Source of the DNA: Solibacillus sp. FSL H8-0538
GTDB lineage: Bacteria > Bacillota > Bacilli > Bacillales_A > Planococcaceae
Assembly: GCF_038003525.1 (NCBI RefSeq)
Contig: NZ_JBBOPI010000001.1
Location: forward strand, 2,657,001-2,721,000
Reading direction: 5' to 3'
Length of the DNA: 64,000 bases
A program made the translations under genes and the position numbers. The notes beneath the pieces were generated by a model that was not told the origin of the DNA, ran no database searches, and worked only from the letters and a program-made list of their open reading frames with translations. Positions 3,343 to 58,993 of this stretch are shown here, in pieces. Numbering within the stretch: the stretch's first letter is position 1; every line of letters begins with the position of its first letter.

Positions 3343-3526
3343 GAACAAATGCGCTAAAGCGCCTGTTTAGCCCCGACAAGCTGCTTGCGAGCCCGAAGTG
3401 AAGGCGCTCTCTTTGCCTTCGCCCGAGGACAGACCGCGACCTCGAGGGGCTGGCGCTTTAGCCTAGACGTTGCATTTACTTATTTGAATGTTATCCACAT
3501 GGCGAATTTTTATAATTTCCTTAACA
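3343..3526. repeat. Repeat family A, copy 1
   Basis: Intergenic repeat shared with 34911-35095 (close copy) and 12447-12598 (diverged). The ends pair as GCTAAAGCGCC + AGCCCC with GGGGCT + GGCGCTTTAGC, a long outer stem with a 5-base bulge, enclosing an inner region with CTTCGCCCGAGG. A constant tail follows, containing TTATCCACA at 3491-3499, a perfect consensus DnaA box. No open reading frame. Confidence 0.8.
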
Positions 3527-3529
3527 GTT

Positions 3530-3609
3530 AGAAAGTCACATCTGGCCCAAAATAGGGCGAGATGCTGTCCTTACTTATGTAGATAAGAAAGTTATACTTT
3601 CTTATCTAC
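3530..3609 (-). repeat. Repeat family B, copy 1 (double hairpin after the rplT terminator)
   Basis: Reading the minus strand: after the rplT terminator U-tract come hairpin H1 (GTAGATAAGAAAG with CTTTCTTATCTAC, 13 bp perfect), a spacer ATAAGTAAGGACA, then hairpin H2 (CATCTCGCCC, loop TATTTT, GGGCCAGATG) and the end GTGACTTTCTA. Confidence 0.85.
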
Positions 3610-4889: not shown

Positions 4890-4981
4890 AATAATCCACC
4901 TCCAAGGTAGTGTCGCGAATACATGGTTTGGTGTATAGTCTAACCCGGTTGAACGGTACACCTCTTTGTCGTGTCCATATA

Positions 4982-5063
4982 AGAAAGACACATCTCGCCC
5001 CAAAATAAGTCGAGATGATGTCCTTTCTTATGTAGGAAAAGGAAAGATTTACTTTCTATTTCC
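4982..5063 (-). repeat. Repeat family B, copy 2 (inside the infC leader)
   Basis: Same double hairpin as at 3530-3609: H1 here is GGAAATAGAAAG with CTTTCCTTTTCC (imperfect), H2 is ATCTCG.. with ..CGAGAT, ending GTGTCTTTCTT. It begins right after the attenuator U-tract, in transcript orientation. Confidence 0.75.
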
Positions 5064-5097
5064 AACAAAAAAGGACGGACACTTGAGATGTCCGCCC
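5064..5097 (-). terminator. Attenuator terminator of the infC leader
   Basis: Minus-strand stem GGGCGGACA with TGTCCGTCC, loop TCTCAAG, followed by TTTTTTG. Its 5' arm shares bases with the antiterminator pairing described for the leader. Confidence 0.8.
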
Positions 5098-10975: not shown

Positions 10976-11140
10976 AGCGGTTTCTCCCGATTCATTTCAA
11001 TTTACTATTTGTATTATAACAAATAACATTATATGAGAAATAATAATTCACGCTTTATTAAAAAAAACGCTTTTAAGGTAGGATATATTTCCCTACCGTT
11101 TGTACTAGTATATGGCTTAACAAAGCGCCTCGCAACTTTA

Positions 11141-11183
11141 GGCAGTCACATCTCGCCCCAAAATGATGGACTTTCTTAAATAC
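11141..11183 (-). repeat. Repeat family B, copy 3 (truncated)
   Basis: Remnant of the double-hairpin repeat after the gapB terminator: TTTTTTT, TATTTAAGAAAG, then GGGGCGAGATGTGACT; most of H1 and half of H2 are lost. Confidence 0.55.
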
Positions 11184-12446: not shown

Positions 12447-12598
12447 GAACAAAAGCGCTAGAAAATTCGAGTTGAATGCGCCATTTGCCTTCGCCCGAGG
12501 ACAGAACACAAACTCGAGGGACTGGCGCCTTCACCTAGAAGTTACATTTCCTTATTGATATGTTCTCCACAAAGCGGAATATTATTATTTTCTTCACA
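12447..12598. repeat. Repeat family A, copy 2 (degenerate)
   Basis: Matches copies at 3343 and 34911 in AAAAGCGCTA, in CTTCGCCCGAGGACAGA, in ACTCGAGGGACTGGCGC and in the tail, but the 5' arm has decayed and the DnaA-box position reads TTCTCCACA. Confidence 0.65.
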
Positions 12599-16962: not shown

Positions 16963-17089
16963 GAAATCTCCTCCATCTATATAAACTTGCACGTTTTATA
17001 TGCAAATTTTCGTTTATGTATAATTGGTCTCCACTACCTACTTTAGCGATTGTTCCCGTGAAATGCCAATATTAATAAATGAAATAATT

Positions 17090-17167
17090 AGAAAGACACA
17101 ACTCGCCCTAAATAGGGCGAGTTGATGTCCTTACTTATATGGTTAAGAAAGTTATACTTTCTTAACC
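17090..17167 (-). repeat. Repeat family B, copy 4
   Basis: Minus strand: T-run, H1 GGTTAAGAAAG / CTTTCTTAACC, spacer ATATAAGTAAGGACATC, H2 AACTCGCCC / GGGCGAGTT, end GTGTCTTTCTA. Both stems differ from copy 1 by paired substitutions. The terminator it follows (AAGATG...CATCTT) was split by the IS1182 insertion. Confidence 0.85.
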
Positions 17168-17261
17168 ACAAAAAAAGATGCTCGCCTAAGCAGAGGGCAC
17201 TGAAAAAGTTGAATTCTACTGATAATTCTAATAAGTAAGTGCTAAATAGTGATAGGTCATT

Positions 17262-17445
17262 GGTGCTCTGGCACTCGCTTTCCGCGGGCGGTGGCGAGCC
17301 TCCTCGGGCCAACACGATGTTGGTCACAAAGGCGTTGCCACAGGACGTGGCGTTCTTAGCCTTCGTTCCTAAAAGCTCCTGCGGGGTCTCACCTGTACCG
17401 CTTTTCCCGCAGGAGTCTCGCGCCGCCGCACCAATGCTTTCTGAA
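17262..17445. repeat. Repeat C1, copy a
   Basis: GC-rich structured block: outer part CTTTCCGCGGGC..GCCTCCTCGG with CTCCTGCGGGG and CCCGCAGGAG, enclosing the core 17307-17370 (CCAAC/GTTGG and a nested AAGGC..GCCAC/GTGGC..GCCTT hairpin). The same core is found in C2. Confidence 0.75.
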
Positions 17446-17471
17446 TAAAATAAAGCAGAGGCATTAAAATA

Positions 17472-17925
17472 CTATAAAAAAATATTGTTTCGTGGTTTTT
17501 CAGTTAGTAGCTTCAATATTCGTTTCATATTGACAGCGAATATCGTTGTGGCCCCTTGTATTTCCATGCCAAATAGGCACGTAGCCGATACCGAATCCTA
17601 CCCGTGTCTGTTTTTCACTTCACTGCTCTTCGCTTCTACTATGTAGCGATTTGCGGCTAATTGTTTAAATGATTCCGTATTTTGAGCGTTCCACTAAGTC
17701 GATGTCTAATACACTATGAATCGCCTTTAATAATAAATATTTATATATACGGATTTTGGGGAATCGCTTTACGTCCATTGTCTAAACAATATTTTGTTTT
17801 TAACTCTTCTAAAATGAATGAAAAGCCAAAAAGTTCATTGATTTGGCGAAGCATGTTATCTTTAGGCACAACAAGTTCGTAAATCGCAATAAATGGGCTT
17901 AAGTTGAGTGTTTCTTGGTTTAAAA
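17472..17925 (-). pseudogene. IS1182-family transposase remnant
   Basis: The N-terminal piece (NQETLNLSPFIAIYELVVPK...) reads from about 17925 to 17765. The C-terminal piece (QLAANRYIVEAKSSEVKNRHG, a stop, then ..FGMEIQGATTIFAVNMKRIL..) reads from about 17685 to a TAG at 17472. The RY.IEAKN.E.KN.HG and QGA.TIFAVNLKRI motifs are typical of the IS1182 DDE transposase C-terminus. Some 300 central residues are missing and an internal stop is present, so it cannot be active. Confidence 0.8.
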
Positions 17926-18024
17926 CAATTTTGAAAAACTATCAATAATGCGTTCCAATTAGAATGCAAAAAAAATCATCCTTTTTTTGTGTGAGCGAAT
18001 GACGCATTCATTCTTAACAGATAC

Positions 18025-18276
18025 AAGTTGATTGGAGTGGAGGCGACGACTTCTAGGGGATTAGCGAGCAGCTTGAGACCCTGGAATGAGGCCAACACGA
18101 TGTTGGTCACAAAGGCGTTGCCACAGGACGTGGCGTACTTAGCCTTTGTTCCTTTGTTACCCGAAAGCGGCTCAAGGCTCGCCCCCAGAAAAGCGTTCGC
18201 CGCAACGGAAATCAACGACATCGAAGAAAAAAGCCAGTTCTTAAACGATGTCTCGTTCTAGAACTGGCTAAACTAC
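18025..18276. repeat. Repeat C2, copy a
   Basis: Starts TTGATTGGAGTGGAGGCGAC, contains the shared core at 18090-18153, then GCGGCTCAAGGCTCGCCCCC and a final hairpin AGCCAGTTCT/AGAACTGGCT (18231-18269). It sits between the transposase start and the element end. Confidence 0.75.
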
Positions 18277-18315
18277 TTTTTAGAATTTTTTCAAATGCTC
18301 GCCTAAGCAAACATC

Positions 18316-18753
18316 TTACTTCAATTTTTTAAACTTAAATTCTTCGACGCTAGCTTTTTCTTCAATGTAAAAAATTTCTTGATAGATTACTGTTAGTAAA
18401 AACGCGTTCATAAACGCAAACACTAAGTATAACGGCATACCACCAAGTTCTGGCTTCATCAGGATTCGGGCAAATACTTCGACAAAACCTACTTGCGTGA
18501 AGTAAAAGATCATTCCAATGCCCACTTGCCAAATTTGAAGCTTGTCCTTACGCTTTTCAAACCATAGAACTTTTTTAAACGAATTACGAACATCCTCTGC
18601 AATGAACAGACTTAAACCAAACATAATGATAAACAATAAAGATATATTAAAAATACCGACTTTCATCCACTCAAAATTTGTTGAGTTAAAAAGTGCGGTA
18701 ATTGACGTTGCCATAATAAATGCGAGTAATGTATTTTGAATCCAATTGCTCAA
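18316..18753 (-). CDS. Small integral membrane protein, unknown
   Basis: 145 aa, three or four hydrophobic segments (about 6-24, 31-51, 77-97, 108-130) and a charged C-terminus rich in Lys/Glu. I do not recognise the family. Start taken as TTG at 18753 (SNWIQNTLLAF) because AAGGGGTGA stands 5-6 bases upstream; the longer open frame to 18912 has no ribosome binding site and runs towards the next repeat element. It is isolated between two insertion remnants, and its terminator is interrupted by one of them. Confidence 0.65.
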   Translation of the reverse strand: MSNWIQNTLLAFIMATSITALFNSTNFEWMKVGIFNISLLFIIMFGLSLFIAEDVRNSFKKVLWFEKRKDKLQIWQVGIGMIFYFTQVGFVEVFARILMKPELGGMPLYLVFAFMNAFLLTVIYQEIFYIEEKASVEEFKFKKLK

Positions 18754-18860
18754 GTGAGTCACCCCTTCTTGAAATCTCACTATTATTATATCATTTTTTA
18801 TATTATTATAAAGTATTTTATTTGAACGTTTCATGAACGTGCGAAAGAAGCACAAAAAAG

Positions 18861-19578
18861 AGGGCACTGCAAAAAGTTGATTTCTAATGAAAATTCTAAT
18901 AGGTATATGCAAAATAGTGATAGGTCAATGGTGCTCTGGCACTCGCTTTTCACGGGCGGTGGCGAGCCTCCTCGGGCCAACACGATGTTGGTCACAAAGG
19001 CGTTGCCACAGGACGTGGCGTTCTTAGCCTTCGTTCCTAAAAGCTCCTGCGGGGTCTCACCTGTACCGCTTTTCCCGCAGGAGTCTCGCGCCGCCGCACC
19101 AATGCTTTCTGAATAAAATAAAGCAGAATTATAAACATACTATTAATAAATACTATTTTGGGGTTTTTCAGTGCCCTAGCTTAAAAGGAGGGGTTTCTTG
19201 GTTTGAAATCCTCAGGAGCACCACCTGTAATTCGTTCCTTTTAGTAGACAAGAAAATCACTCTTTTTAGATAAGGGAATAATCCATTTATTCTTAACAGG
19301 TACTAGTTGATTGGAGTGGAGGCGACGACTTCCAGGGGATTAGCGAGCAGCTTGAGATCCTGGAATGAGGCCAACACGATGTTGGTCAAAAAGGCGTTGC
19401 CACAGGACGTGGCGTACTTAGCCTTTGTTCCTTTGTTACCCCGAAGCGGCTCAAGGCTCGCCCCCAGAAAAGCGTTCGCCGCAACGGAAATCAACGACAT
19501 CGAAGAAAAAAGCCAGTTCTTGAACGATGTCTCGTTCAAGAACTGGCTAAACTACTATATAGACTTTTTCAGTGGCCT
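18861..19578. mobile_element. MITE-like deletion derivative of the IS1182 element
   Basis: Begins AGGGCACTG (18861) and contains repeat C1 copy b (about 18940-19112), then the last few transposase codons (minus-strand TEKPQNSIY before a stop) and CAGTGCCCT (19169-19177). A junction follows to the first codons and upstream region of the transposase (TTTCTTGGTTTGAAATC at 19193) and repeat C2 copy b (19305-19556), ending ACTTTTTCAGTGGCC. The transposase is almost wholly deleted while both ends are kept. Confidence 0.7.
19305..19556. repeat. Repeat C2, copy b
   Basis: Near-identical to 18025-18276. The terminal hairpin is perfect here: a 17-bp stem AGCCAGTTCTTGAACGA with its complement and loop TGTC. 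Confidence 0.75.
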
Positions 19579-19621
19579 CGCTTAAAAGTCAATGGCAATT
19601 GACTTTTAGTACAGCCCCGTA

Positions 19622-19664
19622 AGAAAGACACAACTCGCCCAAAATAGGGCGAGTTGTGTCTTTT
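19622..19664 (-). repeat. Repeat family B, copy 5 (H2 only, likely terminator)
   Basis: Only hairpin H2 is present: AAGACACAACTCGCCC with GGGCGAGTTGTGTCTT, loop TATTTT, then CTTA. It follows the last gene of the accessory operon and, with its T-rich 3' side, probably serves as that operon's terminator. Confidence 0.7.
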
Positions 19665-19676
19665 CCCACTAAAAAA

Positions 19677-29017: not shown

Positions 29018-29311
29018 TTTAATAAATTGCTGTACACCAAAATCTGAACTTGACAGCACATTCCACTCCAGGCGGGCGCTTTCCGCGGGCGTGGCTTGAG
29101 CCTCCTCGGGCCAACACGATGTTGATCACGAAGGCGTTGCCACAGGACGTGGCGTTCTTAGCCTTCGATCCTAAACGCTTCGTGCGGGGTCTCATGGCTC
29201 ACGCTTTTCCCGCAGGAGTCGCCGCCTTCCGTTCCATGTGCCTATAAAGTAGTACACCTTCTTTTAAAGTAAAGAACATGTTTTGGTAAAGACCTTTAAT
29301 AAATTGCTGTA
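29018..29311. mobile_element. Stand-alone C1 element between 17-bp direct repeats
   Basis: TTTAATAAATTGCTGTA occurs at 29018-29034 and again at 29295-29311. Between them lies a 260-bp insert with short terminal inverted repeats ACCAAAA/TTTTGGT and a C1-type block (about 29058-29247) that pairs TTCCACTCCAGGCGGGC at one end with GGAGTCGCCGCC..GTTCC at the other and contains the shared core. No transposase is encoded. Confidence 0.65.
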
Positions 29312-29326
29312 ATTAATTTTAAGAAT

Positions 29327-29370
29327 AGAAAGACACAACTCTTCGAAAATAGGGCGAGATGTGTCCTTCT
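29327..29370 (-). repeat. Repeat family B, copy 6 (degenerate)
   Basis: H2 only, with one arm decayed (GACACATCTCGCCC against GAAGAGTTGTGTCTTTCTA). Confidence 0.55.
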
Positions 29371-29371
29371 A

Positions 29372-29505
29372 ATTTTTAACTCTTCTAAAATGAATGAAAA
29401 ATCAACCAGTTCATTGATTCGCAAAGCCATGTTATCTTTTGGCACAACAATATCGTAAATTGCCATAAACGTGCTTAAGTTGAGTGTTTCTTGGTTTGAA
29501 ATCAT
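29372..29505 (-). pseudogene. N-terminal fragment of IS1182 transposase
   Basis: Codes ISNQETLNLSTFMAIYDIVVPKDNM.. and ..FSFILEEL before diverging into repeat B. It is the same N-terminal piece as at 17765-17925; the rest of the transposase is absent. Confidence 0.7.
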
Positions 29506-29572: not shown

Positions 29573-29840
29573 CAAGTTGATTGGAGTGGAGGCGACGACT
29601 TCTAGGGGATTAGCGAGCAGCCTGAGACCCTGGACTGAGGCCGACACGAAGTTGGTCACAAAGGCGTTGCCACAAGGACGTGGCGTACTTAGCCTTTGTT
29701 CCTTTACTCTCCTGAAGCGGCTCAAGGCTCGCCCCCAGAAAAGCGTTCGCCGCAACGGAAATCAACGACATCGAAGAAAAAAGCCAGTTCTTCAACGATG
29801 CCTCGTTCAAGAACTGACTTAACTCTTTAATGACTTTTTC
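29573..29840. repeat. Repeat C2, copy c, with element end
   Basis: Third copy of C2 (TTGATTGGAGTGGAGG at 29578, core near 29638-29702, terminal hairpin AGCCAGTTCTTCAACG.. near 29782), followed by ACTTTTTCAGTG, the IS1182-type end sequence. It closes the debris between the accessory operon and hflC. Confidence 0.7.
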
Positions 29841-34910: not shown

Positions 34911-35095
34911 GAACAAAAGCGCTAAAGCGCCTGTTTAGCCCCGACAGCTGCTTGCGAGCCCGAAGCGAAAGTAAACGCTCCACCACTTTCGCCCGAGGGA
35001 TCGAAGCGACCTCGAGGGGCTGGCGCTTTAGCCTAGACGTTTCATTTACTTTTTTGAAAGTTATCCACATGGCGAAATTTTATAATTTCCTTAAC
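34911..35095. repeat. Repeat family A, copy 3
   Basis: Close copy of 3343-3526: the same long stem (GCTAAAGCGCC..AGCCCC with GGGGCT..GGCGCTTTAGC), the same tail, and again a perfect DnaA box TTATCCACA at 35061-35069. The central segment differs (GAAAGTAAACGCTCCACCACTTTC forms its own short hairpin). Confidence 0.85.
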
Positions 35096-35102
35096 AAAAA
35101 TA

Positions 35103-36082: not shown

Positions 36083-36131
36083 TCGAATACACTCCTTTTG
36101 ATTGGGTTTGATTGTATACGTCTTTATACTT

Positions 36132-36208
36132 AGAAAGACACATCTCGCCCAAAATAGGGCAAGATGATGTCCTTTATTATGTAGTTAAGAAAGTTATCCT
36201 TTCTTAAC
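36132..36208 (-). repeat. Repeat family B, copy 7
   Basis: Minus strand: after the icd terminator T-run, H1 GTTAAGAAAG / CTTTCTTAAC, spacer with AAAGGACATC, H2 ATCTTGCCC / GGGCGAGAT (one G.T pair), end GTGTCTTTCTAAG. Confidence 0.85.
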
Positions 36209-36212
36209 TATT

Positions 36213-46009: not shown

Positions 46010-46270
46010 GCGTATTTGCGCCTGTTCACACGCGATTGGCAAAAAAACCAGTCCGTGCAGTATTGTCAAAATGACCAACTTCGAGGTGGCCTCAAACTGT
46101 TGGAGATCCCAAAGTGAAAGTACTCTTTTCAACTTTCACCCCAGGAATCTTAGCAACCTAAGTTCGCTGCATCCATGCAGCAACGGTTACATGACCCACA
46201 TCTTGTGAGCCCGACCTCTTTTGCGAGAGCGCAAATGTCTAGCTATCTCTTGAAATTTAAATTTCTGCCC
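46010..46270. repeat. Structured intergenic block, distant relative of repeat A
   Basis: Outer arms AAAAGCGTATTTGCGCCTGTT and GCGCAAATGTCTAGC resemble the ends of repeat A (AAAAGCGCTAAAGCGCCTGTT, GGCGCTTTAGCCTAGACG) and can pair. The inside has a perfect GCTGCAT/ATGCAGC hairpin near 46167-46183. No gene is seen in 45990-46476. Confidence 0.4.
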
Positions 46271-46476: not shown

Positions 46477-47472
46477 ATGGTTGGATTTTTCCGGAAATTA
46501 TTTTCAGTTGATACTACACCGATAGACAAAAGATACAACGAGAATGGATTCAATCTCTATGGCATACATAAAAATGGAACGAAATACAATGATGCTGGAT
46601 TTGATCTACGAGGATTTAACCAAGATGGAAAAACAATAAATAGACGATATTACGATGAAAACGGCTTTGATGCAAAAGGTATTCACCTAACAGGCAAAAA
46701 GTATATCGCAGGATACGATTGCTTCGGCTACGATTCGTTAGGCTTTAATCGCGATGGCTGGAACCGAGAAGGCTTTTATCATGATGGCTTCAATAAACAA
46801 GGCATCGATAAAGATGGATTCAATCGTGAGGGTTGGAATGAATTTAATTTTAATCGTGAGGGACTTCACAAAAACGGCACACGTTTCGATAAAAAAGGCT
46901 TTGCGGCTGATGGCTTTAATCGAGACGGAATTGACCGCAACGGATTTAATCGCGGTGGGTATAATCAAAATGGCATCGACCGCGAAGGATTTAATCAAGA
47001 TGGCTATAATAAAAAGGGCTTTGACCGCAACGGGTTTGACCGACAAGGATTCGATAAAAATGGCTTTGACATAGAAGGTTATACATCAGCCGGATTTGAT
47101 ATCGAAGGGTTTGACCGCAATGGATTTAATAAACAGGGCTTCAATCGAAAAGGCTTTGATGCACAGGGCTTTGATAAATTCGGGTTTAATCAAGATAAAT
47201 TCGATCGAGAAGGGTTTAAAGATAATGGATTTAATGCACTGGGCTTTGACCGTAATGGATTCAACAAACAAGGCTTTAACGCTCAAGGCTTTAATGCAAA
47301 AGGATTCAATCAACACGGATTTAATGTACACGGACTCAACGCGCAAGGGTTTGATAGTACAGGATTTGACAAAGATGGTTTGGACATATATGGATTTGAC
47401 CGTGATGGCTACGACCGGCAAGGTTTTAACCGACAAGGTGAGCGGAAAGTTGAAACGGCGATTGACCAATAA
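46477..47472 (+). CDS. Pentad-repeat (G-F-N/D-x-x) protein, unknown function
   Basis: 331 aa. After about 15 residues (MVGFFRKLFSVDTTP) almost the whole protein is an array of about fifty five-residue units, consensus Gly-aromatic/aliphatic-Asn/Asp-x-x (GFNRD, GFDKN, GYNQN, GIDRE). The register shifts at a few inserts (HKNGTRFDKKG, HLTGKKYIAG). No signal peptide or membrane segment. The order differs from classical pentapeptide repeats (A-D/N-L-x-x), and no RTX GGxGxD motif is present. Glycine and phenylalanine codons vary freely between units, so the protein pattern is held by selection rather than by very recent duplication. RBS AAAGGATGG. It may form a solenoid or bind cations through its many Asn/Asp, but this is a guess. 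Stands between the acc regulator and dnaE. Confidence 0.8.
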   Translation: MVGFFRKLFSVDTTPIDKRYNENGFNLYGIHKNGTKYNDAGFDLRGFNQDGKTINRRYYDENGFDAKGIHLTGKKYIAGYDCFGYDSLGFNRDGWNREGFYHDGFNKQGIDKDGFNREGWNEFNFNREGLHKNGTRFDKKGFAADGFNRDGIDRNGFNRGGYNQNGIDREGFNQDGYNKKGFDRNGFDRQGFDKNGFDIEGYTSAGFDIEGFDRNGFNKQGFNRKGFDAQGFDKFGFNQDKFDREGFKDNGFNALGFDRNGFNKQGFNAQGFNAKGFNQHGFNVHGLNAQGFDSTGFDKDGLDIYGFDRDGYDRQGFNRQGERKVETAIDQ

Positions 47473-51989: not shown

Positions 51990-52034
51990 AGAAAGGACAT
52001 CTTCTAACCTCTTTTGGGAAGGGATGTGTCTTTC
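51990..52034 (+). repeat. Repeat family B, copy 8 (plus orientation)
   Basis: AGAAAGGACATC..GATGTGTCTTTCTA follows the ytpI terminator. It is in plus orientation, as ytpI is on the plus strand, so the repeat keeps its orientation relative to the upstream gene. Only the H2-like outer stem is kept, with a diverged inside. Confidence 0.65.
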
Positions 52035-52037
52035 TAA

Positions 52038-58889: not shown

Positions 58890-58913
58890 TTTTCATTTAG
58901 TTGACAACCCTTT

Positions 58914-58993
58914 AGAAAGACACAACTCGTCCAAAATAGGACGAGTTCATGTCCTTACTTATGCGAATGGGAAAGTTATACTTTCTTATCCAT
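58914..58993 (-). repeat. Repeat family B, copy 9
   Basis: Minus strand: after the ytxK terminator T-run, H1 GGATAAGAAAG / CTTTCCCATTC (partly decayed), spacer ATAAGTAAGGACATG, H2 AACTCGTCC / GGACGAGTT, end GTGTCTTTCTA. The C-G to T-A change in H2 is compensated on both arms relative to other copies. Confidence 0.85.

Follow-up and report, generated by a model that had tools for sequence, protein, structure and literature searches.

The window analysed here, a 64,000-nt stretch of the genome of Solibacillus sp. FSL H8-0538, carries at nine places the sequence of a short repeat. The element is roughly 80-90 nt long, is bounded by two hairpins (H1 on the left, H2 on the right) and has no coding region. 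The copy at 3528-3609 (minus strand; H1 at 3579-3609, H2 at 3532-3572) is full and lies behind the terminator of rplT, a gene assigned by Pfam. A full but diverged copy at 4980-5066 (minus) sits within the leader of infC (assigned by Pfam), upstream of the gene and directly behind the L20-leader terminator; any read-through of this terminator should lead to transcription of the copy. Further full copies occur at 17088-17169 (minus), upstream of polA and after a T-run bordering on another repeat module; at 36130-36211 (minus), behind the terminator of an isocitrate/isopropylmalate dehydrogenase-family gene; and at 58912-58993 (minus), behind that of a YtxK-like methylase gene, the last with H1 partly broken. 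H2 alone is present at 19620-19669 (minus), after a T-run ending an ADP-ribosylglycohydrolase-family gene, at 29326-29372 (minus), a degenerate copy without a clear terminator, and at 51991-52037 (plus), behind the ytpI terminator. A remnant at 11138-11183 (minus) follows the terminator of a glyceraldehyde-3-phosphate dehydrogenase gene, again assigned by Pfam. Some of the H2-only copies look like deletions between TAAGAAAG words common to H1 and H2. Another repeat family, with copies of about 115 nt, is found at 3412-3526, 12484-12598 and 34982-35096, and one of its copies, which is G+C-rich, adjoins the repeat at 3530.

A sequence-only reading of the window had described nine double hairpins, starting at 3530, 4982, 11141, 17090, 19622, 29327, 36132, 51990 and 58914. 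Element sequence is indeed present at all nine places, but the double hairpin is complete in only five of them (3530, 4982, 17090, 36132 and 58914); those at 19622, 29327 and 51990 retain H2 only, and 11141 is a remnant. The same reading placed six of the copies shortly after intrinsic terminators and 17090 after one split by an IS. T-runs lie 5' of eight of the nine; no convincing terminator was found upstream of 29327, and the T-run at 19622 follows straight after the stop codon, without a hairpin. Its statement that each copy keeps the orientation of the upstream gene agrees with the list of open reading frames, provided that an 81-aa plus-strand ORF is disregarded at 29327. For 17090 the agreement holds only across the intervening repeat module, the other terminator arm of which is untraced. 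The compensated stem changes it named do exist, with the reservation that H1 of 58914 is partly broken.

On the sense strand, which is the minus strand for eight of the nine window copies, the order of parts is T-tract, A/G/T, H1, ATAAGT, H2, CTAA. H1, which abuts the very left end of the element, is GTGGATAAGAAAG-tataa-CTTTCTTATCCAC or a variant of it, and H2 is AAGGACATCATCTCGCCC-tatttt-GGGCGAGATGTGTCTTT; the two hairpins differ and are not inverted copies of each other. The right end, H2 followed by TTTTCTAA, resembles a terminator (hairpin plus TTTTTA). Both ends are fairly fixed in this genome, running from GTGG/GTAG to TTTCTAA: among the 150 copies listed, 113 start with GTGG or GTAG and 111 have the right end TTCTAA, whatever the base flanking them on the left. 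The five full window copies, folded alone, gave z-scores of -6.3 to -10.8, and none of 200 shuffles was as stable. By eye only, the linker AAGAAAAG is complementary to the T-tract. Rfam, scanned with the window and eight loci, gave no match on the element at gathering score.

The family is large. A pattern describing one H2 arm matched the genome 176 times with up to two mismatches and 238 times with up to three, against 0 and 1 matches, respectively, for a reversed control. Covariance model R1, built without the T-tract, identified at least 150 full-length copies on both contigs with E-values of 2.4e-7 or better, and copy totals for this genome are to be taken as lower bounds. The 150 places listed include four of the five full window copies (all but 4982), and the neighbouring DNA of all 150 was analysed. 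Covariance-model scans of the genome and its relatives extended the family recognised in the window to at least 150 full-length copies here and, with model R2 at an E-value of 1e-4, to 38 of 261 genomes of the bacterial family (our own included), in 6 of 19 genera. Exact patterns gave no match in genome and viral contigs; these were patterns of the genome's own subfamilies, its own records were perhaps excluded, and the result is not evidence of absence. A search of plasmid and phage records likewise returned no match to the element.

The genomic copies share a T-tract on their left. T accounts for 78-95% of bases at each of positions -7 to -2 upstream of the 150 listed copies; the base at -1 is A in 77, T in 38, G in 35 and C in none, and 63% have T at +1. 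Immediately ahead of the T-tract, 60% of the copies have a stem scoring 11 or more, a proportion that falls to 13% for 2000 other T-runs and to 5% once the upstream sequence is shuffled; a folding energy of -8 or lower is reached by 67%, 15% and 10%, respectively. A scored hairpin preceded 18.9% of 1384 control intergenic T-tracts, so that position behind terminators, inferred beforehand from the window, exceeds chance (60% against 19%). By a strict rule, 88 of the 150 listed copies are terminator-like, the rest mostly having a T-tract without a scored hairpin; the score misses some long or bulged hairpins. Since 60 of the 150 fall below the hairpin score, the T-tract is the main determinant. 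A simple ORF map places 126 of the copies in intergenic DNA, 16 across the edge of an ORF and eight within ORFs, of which seven fall short of 120 aa and may be spurious. The upstream stop codon lies at a median distance of 53.5 nt. The DNA fetched lies near the copies, and the gene and T-tract controls are not a random sample of the genome.

Orientation is biased with respect to both the upstream gene and the replication fork. The upstream gene is on the same strand for 102 of the 126 intergenic copies, against 667 of the 1384 intergenic control T-tracts and 169 of the 262 controls that have a hairpin; the orientation bias seen in the window holds genome-wide. Among chromosomal copies, 132 of 148 are co-directional with the fork, compared with 306 of 412 nearby ORFs of at least 150 aa (p 1e-4). 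If the upstream gene lies on the same strand as the copy, copies divide 93:8 with and against the fork and control T-tracts 413:233 (p 1e-9); if it lies on the other strand, 19 of 23 copies (19:4) still run with the fork, against 202 of 692 controls (202:490; p 3e-7). GC skew and gene strands switch near 1.9 Mb, in agreement with the assumed origin and terminus. The fork bias in this genome is a prediction of insertion into the lagging-strand template, and the strand bias points to single-stranded DNA. When the start of the contig is taken as the origin in four single-contig relatives, 36 of their 43 listed copies run with the fork, which is more than half but not above a gene bias of 0.75 (p 0.22).

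Comparison of filled and empty sites provides evidence of mobility. At one locus within a single genus (L155), the copy is present in G185 and G186, and the site is empty in G189, G193, G184, G182, G192 and G181; these are the eight of 16 genomes searched that aligned across the site, two more having given one flank only. In the empty state, ATTTCTTA, the T-rich stretch behind the terminator, runs directly into the next ribosome-binding site, and the filled state shows no target duplication. A paralogous empty site is offered by a copy lying inside an IS200 copy, L132, as the same place is uninterrupted in L130 and L131. At this one orthologous and one paralogous locus, target sequence was neither duplicated nor lost. 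One copy is nested in the H2 loop of another, and identical copies occupy distant sites in the genome, in groups of two and four. In relatives, head-to-tail arrays with units of about 85 nt occur at L259 (G271), G114:C352:30359-30703 and G113:C7:153210-153381; the array junction in G271 reads TTTTTCTAC followed directly by GCGGAT. The repeat is therefore a real, mobile, terminator-targeting family of miniature elements without an Rfam match. A terminator-targeting mobile repeat was one of two options put forward by the sequence-only reading, and it is supported by the placement at T-tracts and terminators, the orientation and the clean empty sites. Intergenic repeats with mobile traits also include bcr1 and similar repeats of the Bacillus group.

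Copies in relatives follow the same T-tract rule. The family search scored at most 17 candidates per genome under strict filters, and copy numbers are not comparable between genomes. Among 59 relatives' copies, which include loci common to G181 and G182, 54 have T at -3, 55 have T at -2 and two have C at -1, and a scored hairpin lies upstream in 31; 43 end in TTTCTAA, 35 of these with TTTTTCTAA. The left stem varies by species, being GTGGAT/ATCCAC, GCGGAT/ATCCGC, GTCGAT/ATCGAC or ACTGAT/ATCAGT. Orthologous copies have been retained between species. Several are at the same loci in G181 and G182, so that the copies of these two genomes may be inherited fossils. One weak match (L037, in G053) was left aside as doubtful. 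Copies starting with ACTGAT were seen at L038, L149, L153 and L154 (genomes G029, G114, G113 and G117), and the preceding base is C in three of these four; the left end may influence target choice. At three loci, each in a different species, L036 (G031), L222 (G182) and L279 (G192), the copy ends directly at AGGAGGAGCAAG, a likely ribosome-binding site. The genes flanking L036 are, judging from the encoded protein ends, presumably purF and purM, so that the copy may lie inside an operon.

The other option raised for the repeat was a functional 3' RNA, in which the hairpins would act in each read-through transcript, for example as a back-up terminator or a block to exonucleases, and be selected locus by locus. 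The stable folds, the gene-sense orientation of 102 of the 126 intergenic copies, the retention of orthologous copies between species and the presence of the 4982 copy in a transcribed leader all suit such a role, as do the compensated changes within subfamilies. Across genera, in an alignment of 103 distinct rows (A7, fitted to the structure and including a few opposite-strand matches), 89.4% of pair cells are standard, compared with 76.8% after shuffling and 42-55% after sliding, and two-sided changes occur in 28 of 30 pairs, with 366 such cells against 120 in shuffles. Within our genome, pairs 3/29, 5/27 and 48/69 switch together between five subfamilies, which were defined by diagnostic columns, hierarchical clustering having yielded none useful. 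The 26 compensated double changes within subfamilies exceed shuffles, of which 1000 gave a mean of 10.5 and a maximum of 20. Compensated changes, as claimed from the window, are thus real: they separate subfamilies and genera, with a modest excess over shuffles within subfamilies. Selection on every locus, however, is hard to reconcile with the pattern of private changes, computed without gaps from 120 of the 150 listed copies. Stem positions change within subfamilies nearly as often as unpaired ones (rates of 0.070-0.071 and 0.080), and outside the diagnostic pairs, 344 one-sided changes (240 breaks and 104 wobbles) and 11 uncompensated doubles stand against the 26 compensated doubles. Sense-strand G.T and A.C changes number 101 and 79, a difference that is not significant (p 0.12), the largest subfamily carries two mismatches in H1, and the fork bias persists where the upstream gene is opposite. 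On these grounds, we regard a functional 3' RNA at each locus as very unlikely. As the compensated changes lie between subfamilies and genera and are modest in excess within subfamilies, they record constraint mainly on the source elements, with inserted copies decaying nearly neutrally; the modest excess could, we infer, come from finer lineages or template-switch repair. The repeat also accounts for numerous terminator-adjacent hairpins of this genome, which might otherwise pass for functional 3' RNA elements.

Other kinds of enzyme could be responsible for moving the element. Group IIC introns insert directly behind intrinsic terminators (PMC4424553, in the part available), and a reverse transcriptase of this type, whose introns may use replication-fork primers, could mobilise the repeat. 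RVT_1 matches occur in six of nine genomes searched, and in relative G274, where such introns apparently also lie behind terminators, two loci (L281 and L287) with an RT frame of 440 aa begin GTGTGCC directly after TTTTTTAT behind a hairpin, which is the niche of the repeat; from the RT and the GTGTG start alone, both look like group II introns. Our genome, in contrast, has no RVT_1 or GIIM match despite at least 150 copies, some of them identical, and no RVT_1 match was found in G181 and G182. Nor did Rfam scans of the window and eight loci return a group II family or any ribozyme match, and 82 nt leaves no room for a ribozyme. A group II origin is disfavoured for our genome, and we give little credence to mobilisation by such a reverse transcriptase. 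Another recombinase, for instance an IS110-like or unknown enzyme that recognises hairpin plus T-tract, would be compatible with the finding that no enzyme searched for tracks the element, IS110-like enzymes not having been among them. The right end, though, is mostly TTCTAA (in those 111 of the 150 listed copies) irrespective of the left flank, without a shared core, and the strand bias points to single-stranded DNA; we consider such a recombinase unlikely.

The absence of target duplication, the hairpin ends, the one-sided targeting of T-tracts and the lagging-strand orientation are together marks of Y1/HUH single-strand transposition. We therefore judge the repeat to be probably a non-autonomous, hairpin-ended, single-strand element of IS200/Y1-like type, whose mobilising enzyme is unidentified. 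An enzyme supplied in trans, by inference most likely a Y1/HUH (IS200-like) transposase, would recognise the hairpins on single-stranded DNA and, at replication forks, insert the element into the template of the lagging strand. As the sites themselves show, insertion takes place 3' of a T-tract ending mostly in A, G or T, with the same element end towards it, and the commonest target is the U-tract of an intrinsic terminator. As the element's own right end looks like a terminator, a single mode of recognition may suffice for both the donor end and the target. An insertion behind a terminator spares both the terminator and the gene, which allows copies to persist and afterwards to decay almost neutrally. 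More tentatively, and with rather less conviction, we speculate that the repeat represents a whole class of miniature single-strand elements, which occurs in several genera of the bacterial family and locates its targets by mimicking terminators. With a right end that is itself a hairpin and T-tract, any enzyme cutting behind this structure would also cut behind host terminators in the lagging-strand template. IS200 copies of these bacteria follow the same rule, and the repeat may belong to an orphan or unrecognised enzyme. The element combines a base-precise preference for a nearly harmless site behind terminators with a measurable replication-strand signature. If found, its enzyme would be a compact means of inserting DNA behind genes, and would make it possible to test whether targets are chosen through structural mimicry and not by a short guide word alone.

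Candidate enzymes were sought in our genome and in relatives. Our genome has three IS200-like Y1 genes without stops (full-length domain matches) and one fragment, but the presence of Y1 genes does not track the element: they occur in 21 of the 38 element-bearing genomes and in 149 of the 223 others, and none was detected at an E-value of 1e-5 in the high-copy genomes G181, G182, G187 and G271. No autonomous element with the repeat's ends was found among the IS loci examined, and model R2 detected no copy at the ends of the IS200 copies L130 and L131. A RAYT partner was rejected because none of four loci that we label RAYT-like (L134 and L291-L293; three are in carrier genomes, the G265 locus being in a genome without a listed copy) had a copy nearby by model R2 and Y1 genes are not associated with the element; a TnpB partner was set aside after its single locus, L135, gave no model match. 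IS200 copies themselves are found at sites like those of the repeat. A left-end query matched 18 of the 32 IS200-type loci examined, and the left end could be read in 17 of these 18, in some by extrapolating as far as 9 nt; all 17, namely L130, L131 and L132 in our genome and 14 loci among L192-L220 in relatives, lie behind a hairpin and T-tract. Most right ends mimic such a site, consisting of a hairpin plus TTTTGATT, TTCTGATT or TTTTTATT. A literature search from which most subscription papers were out of scope turned up neither a terminator preference of IS200 nor the repeat, and the accessible portions of PMC9208149 and PMC2267715 mention neither.

Among known systems, the repeat resembles IS200/IS605 elements and palindrome-associated transposable elements (PATEs), which likewise have hairpins at both ends, make no duplication, insert on one strand 3' of a short word with a lagging-strand bias, and need an enzyme acting in trans (for IS200/IS605, see the accessible parts of PMC7290912 and PMC6006769). 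As far as these sources could be seen, the bias is not universal, 22 IS605 copies of another bacterium showing no strand preference (PMC7290912); IS608 recognises its tetranucleotide by base pairing (PMC5934647, seen in part). Hairpins in IS200/IS605 are subterminal, with the guide word 5' of the foot (from sources available in part, PMC6006769 among them), whereas H1 of the repeat reaches the very left end. The repeat's ends are also unlike those of the IS200 copies read, no partner transposase has been identified, and its T-tract target is looser than a fixed tetranucleotide. The repeat is novel as a variant of hairpin-ended single-strand elements. With REP/REPIN sequences (as defined in the available parts of PMC6006769, PMC3116915 and PMC3733652) it shares high-copy extragenic hairpins, a GTGG or GTAG start, which is the REP tag (PMC6006769, from the same excerpts), and tandem clusters, also formed by REPINs (PMC3116915, likewise). 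Unlike in REP/REPIN, however, the tag of the repeat is base-paired and becomes GCGG, ACTG or GTCG in relatives with matching changes, H1 and H2 are not an inverted pair, and none of the four RAYT-like loci is flanked by copies. The paired, variable tag and the missing RAYT adjacency rule out membership of REP/REPIN.

Other repeats were also observed in the window. Seven matches to Bacillaceae-1 RNA, several within larger repeated modules, are located with these modules at 17296-19439, 29098-29179, 29641-29708 and 46142-46209. A module with AGGGCACTGAAAAAGT-like ends also splits the left end of IS200 in L130. Lastly, positions 46477-47472 hold a 331-aa ORF made largely of 15-bp repeats, with a weak match, below cut-off, to the Pfam Decapeptide repeat.
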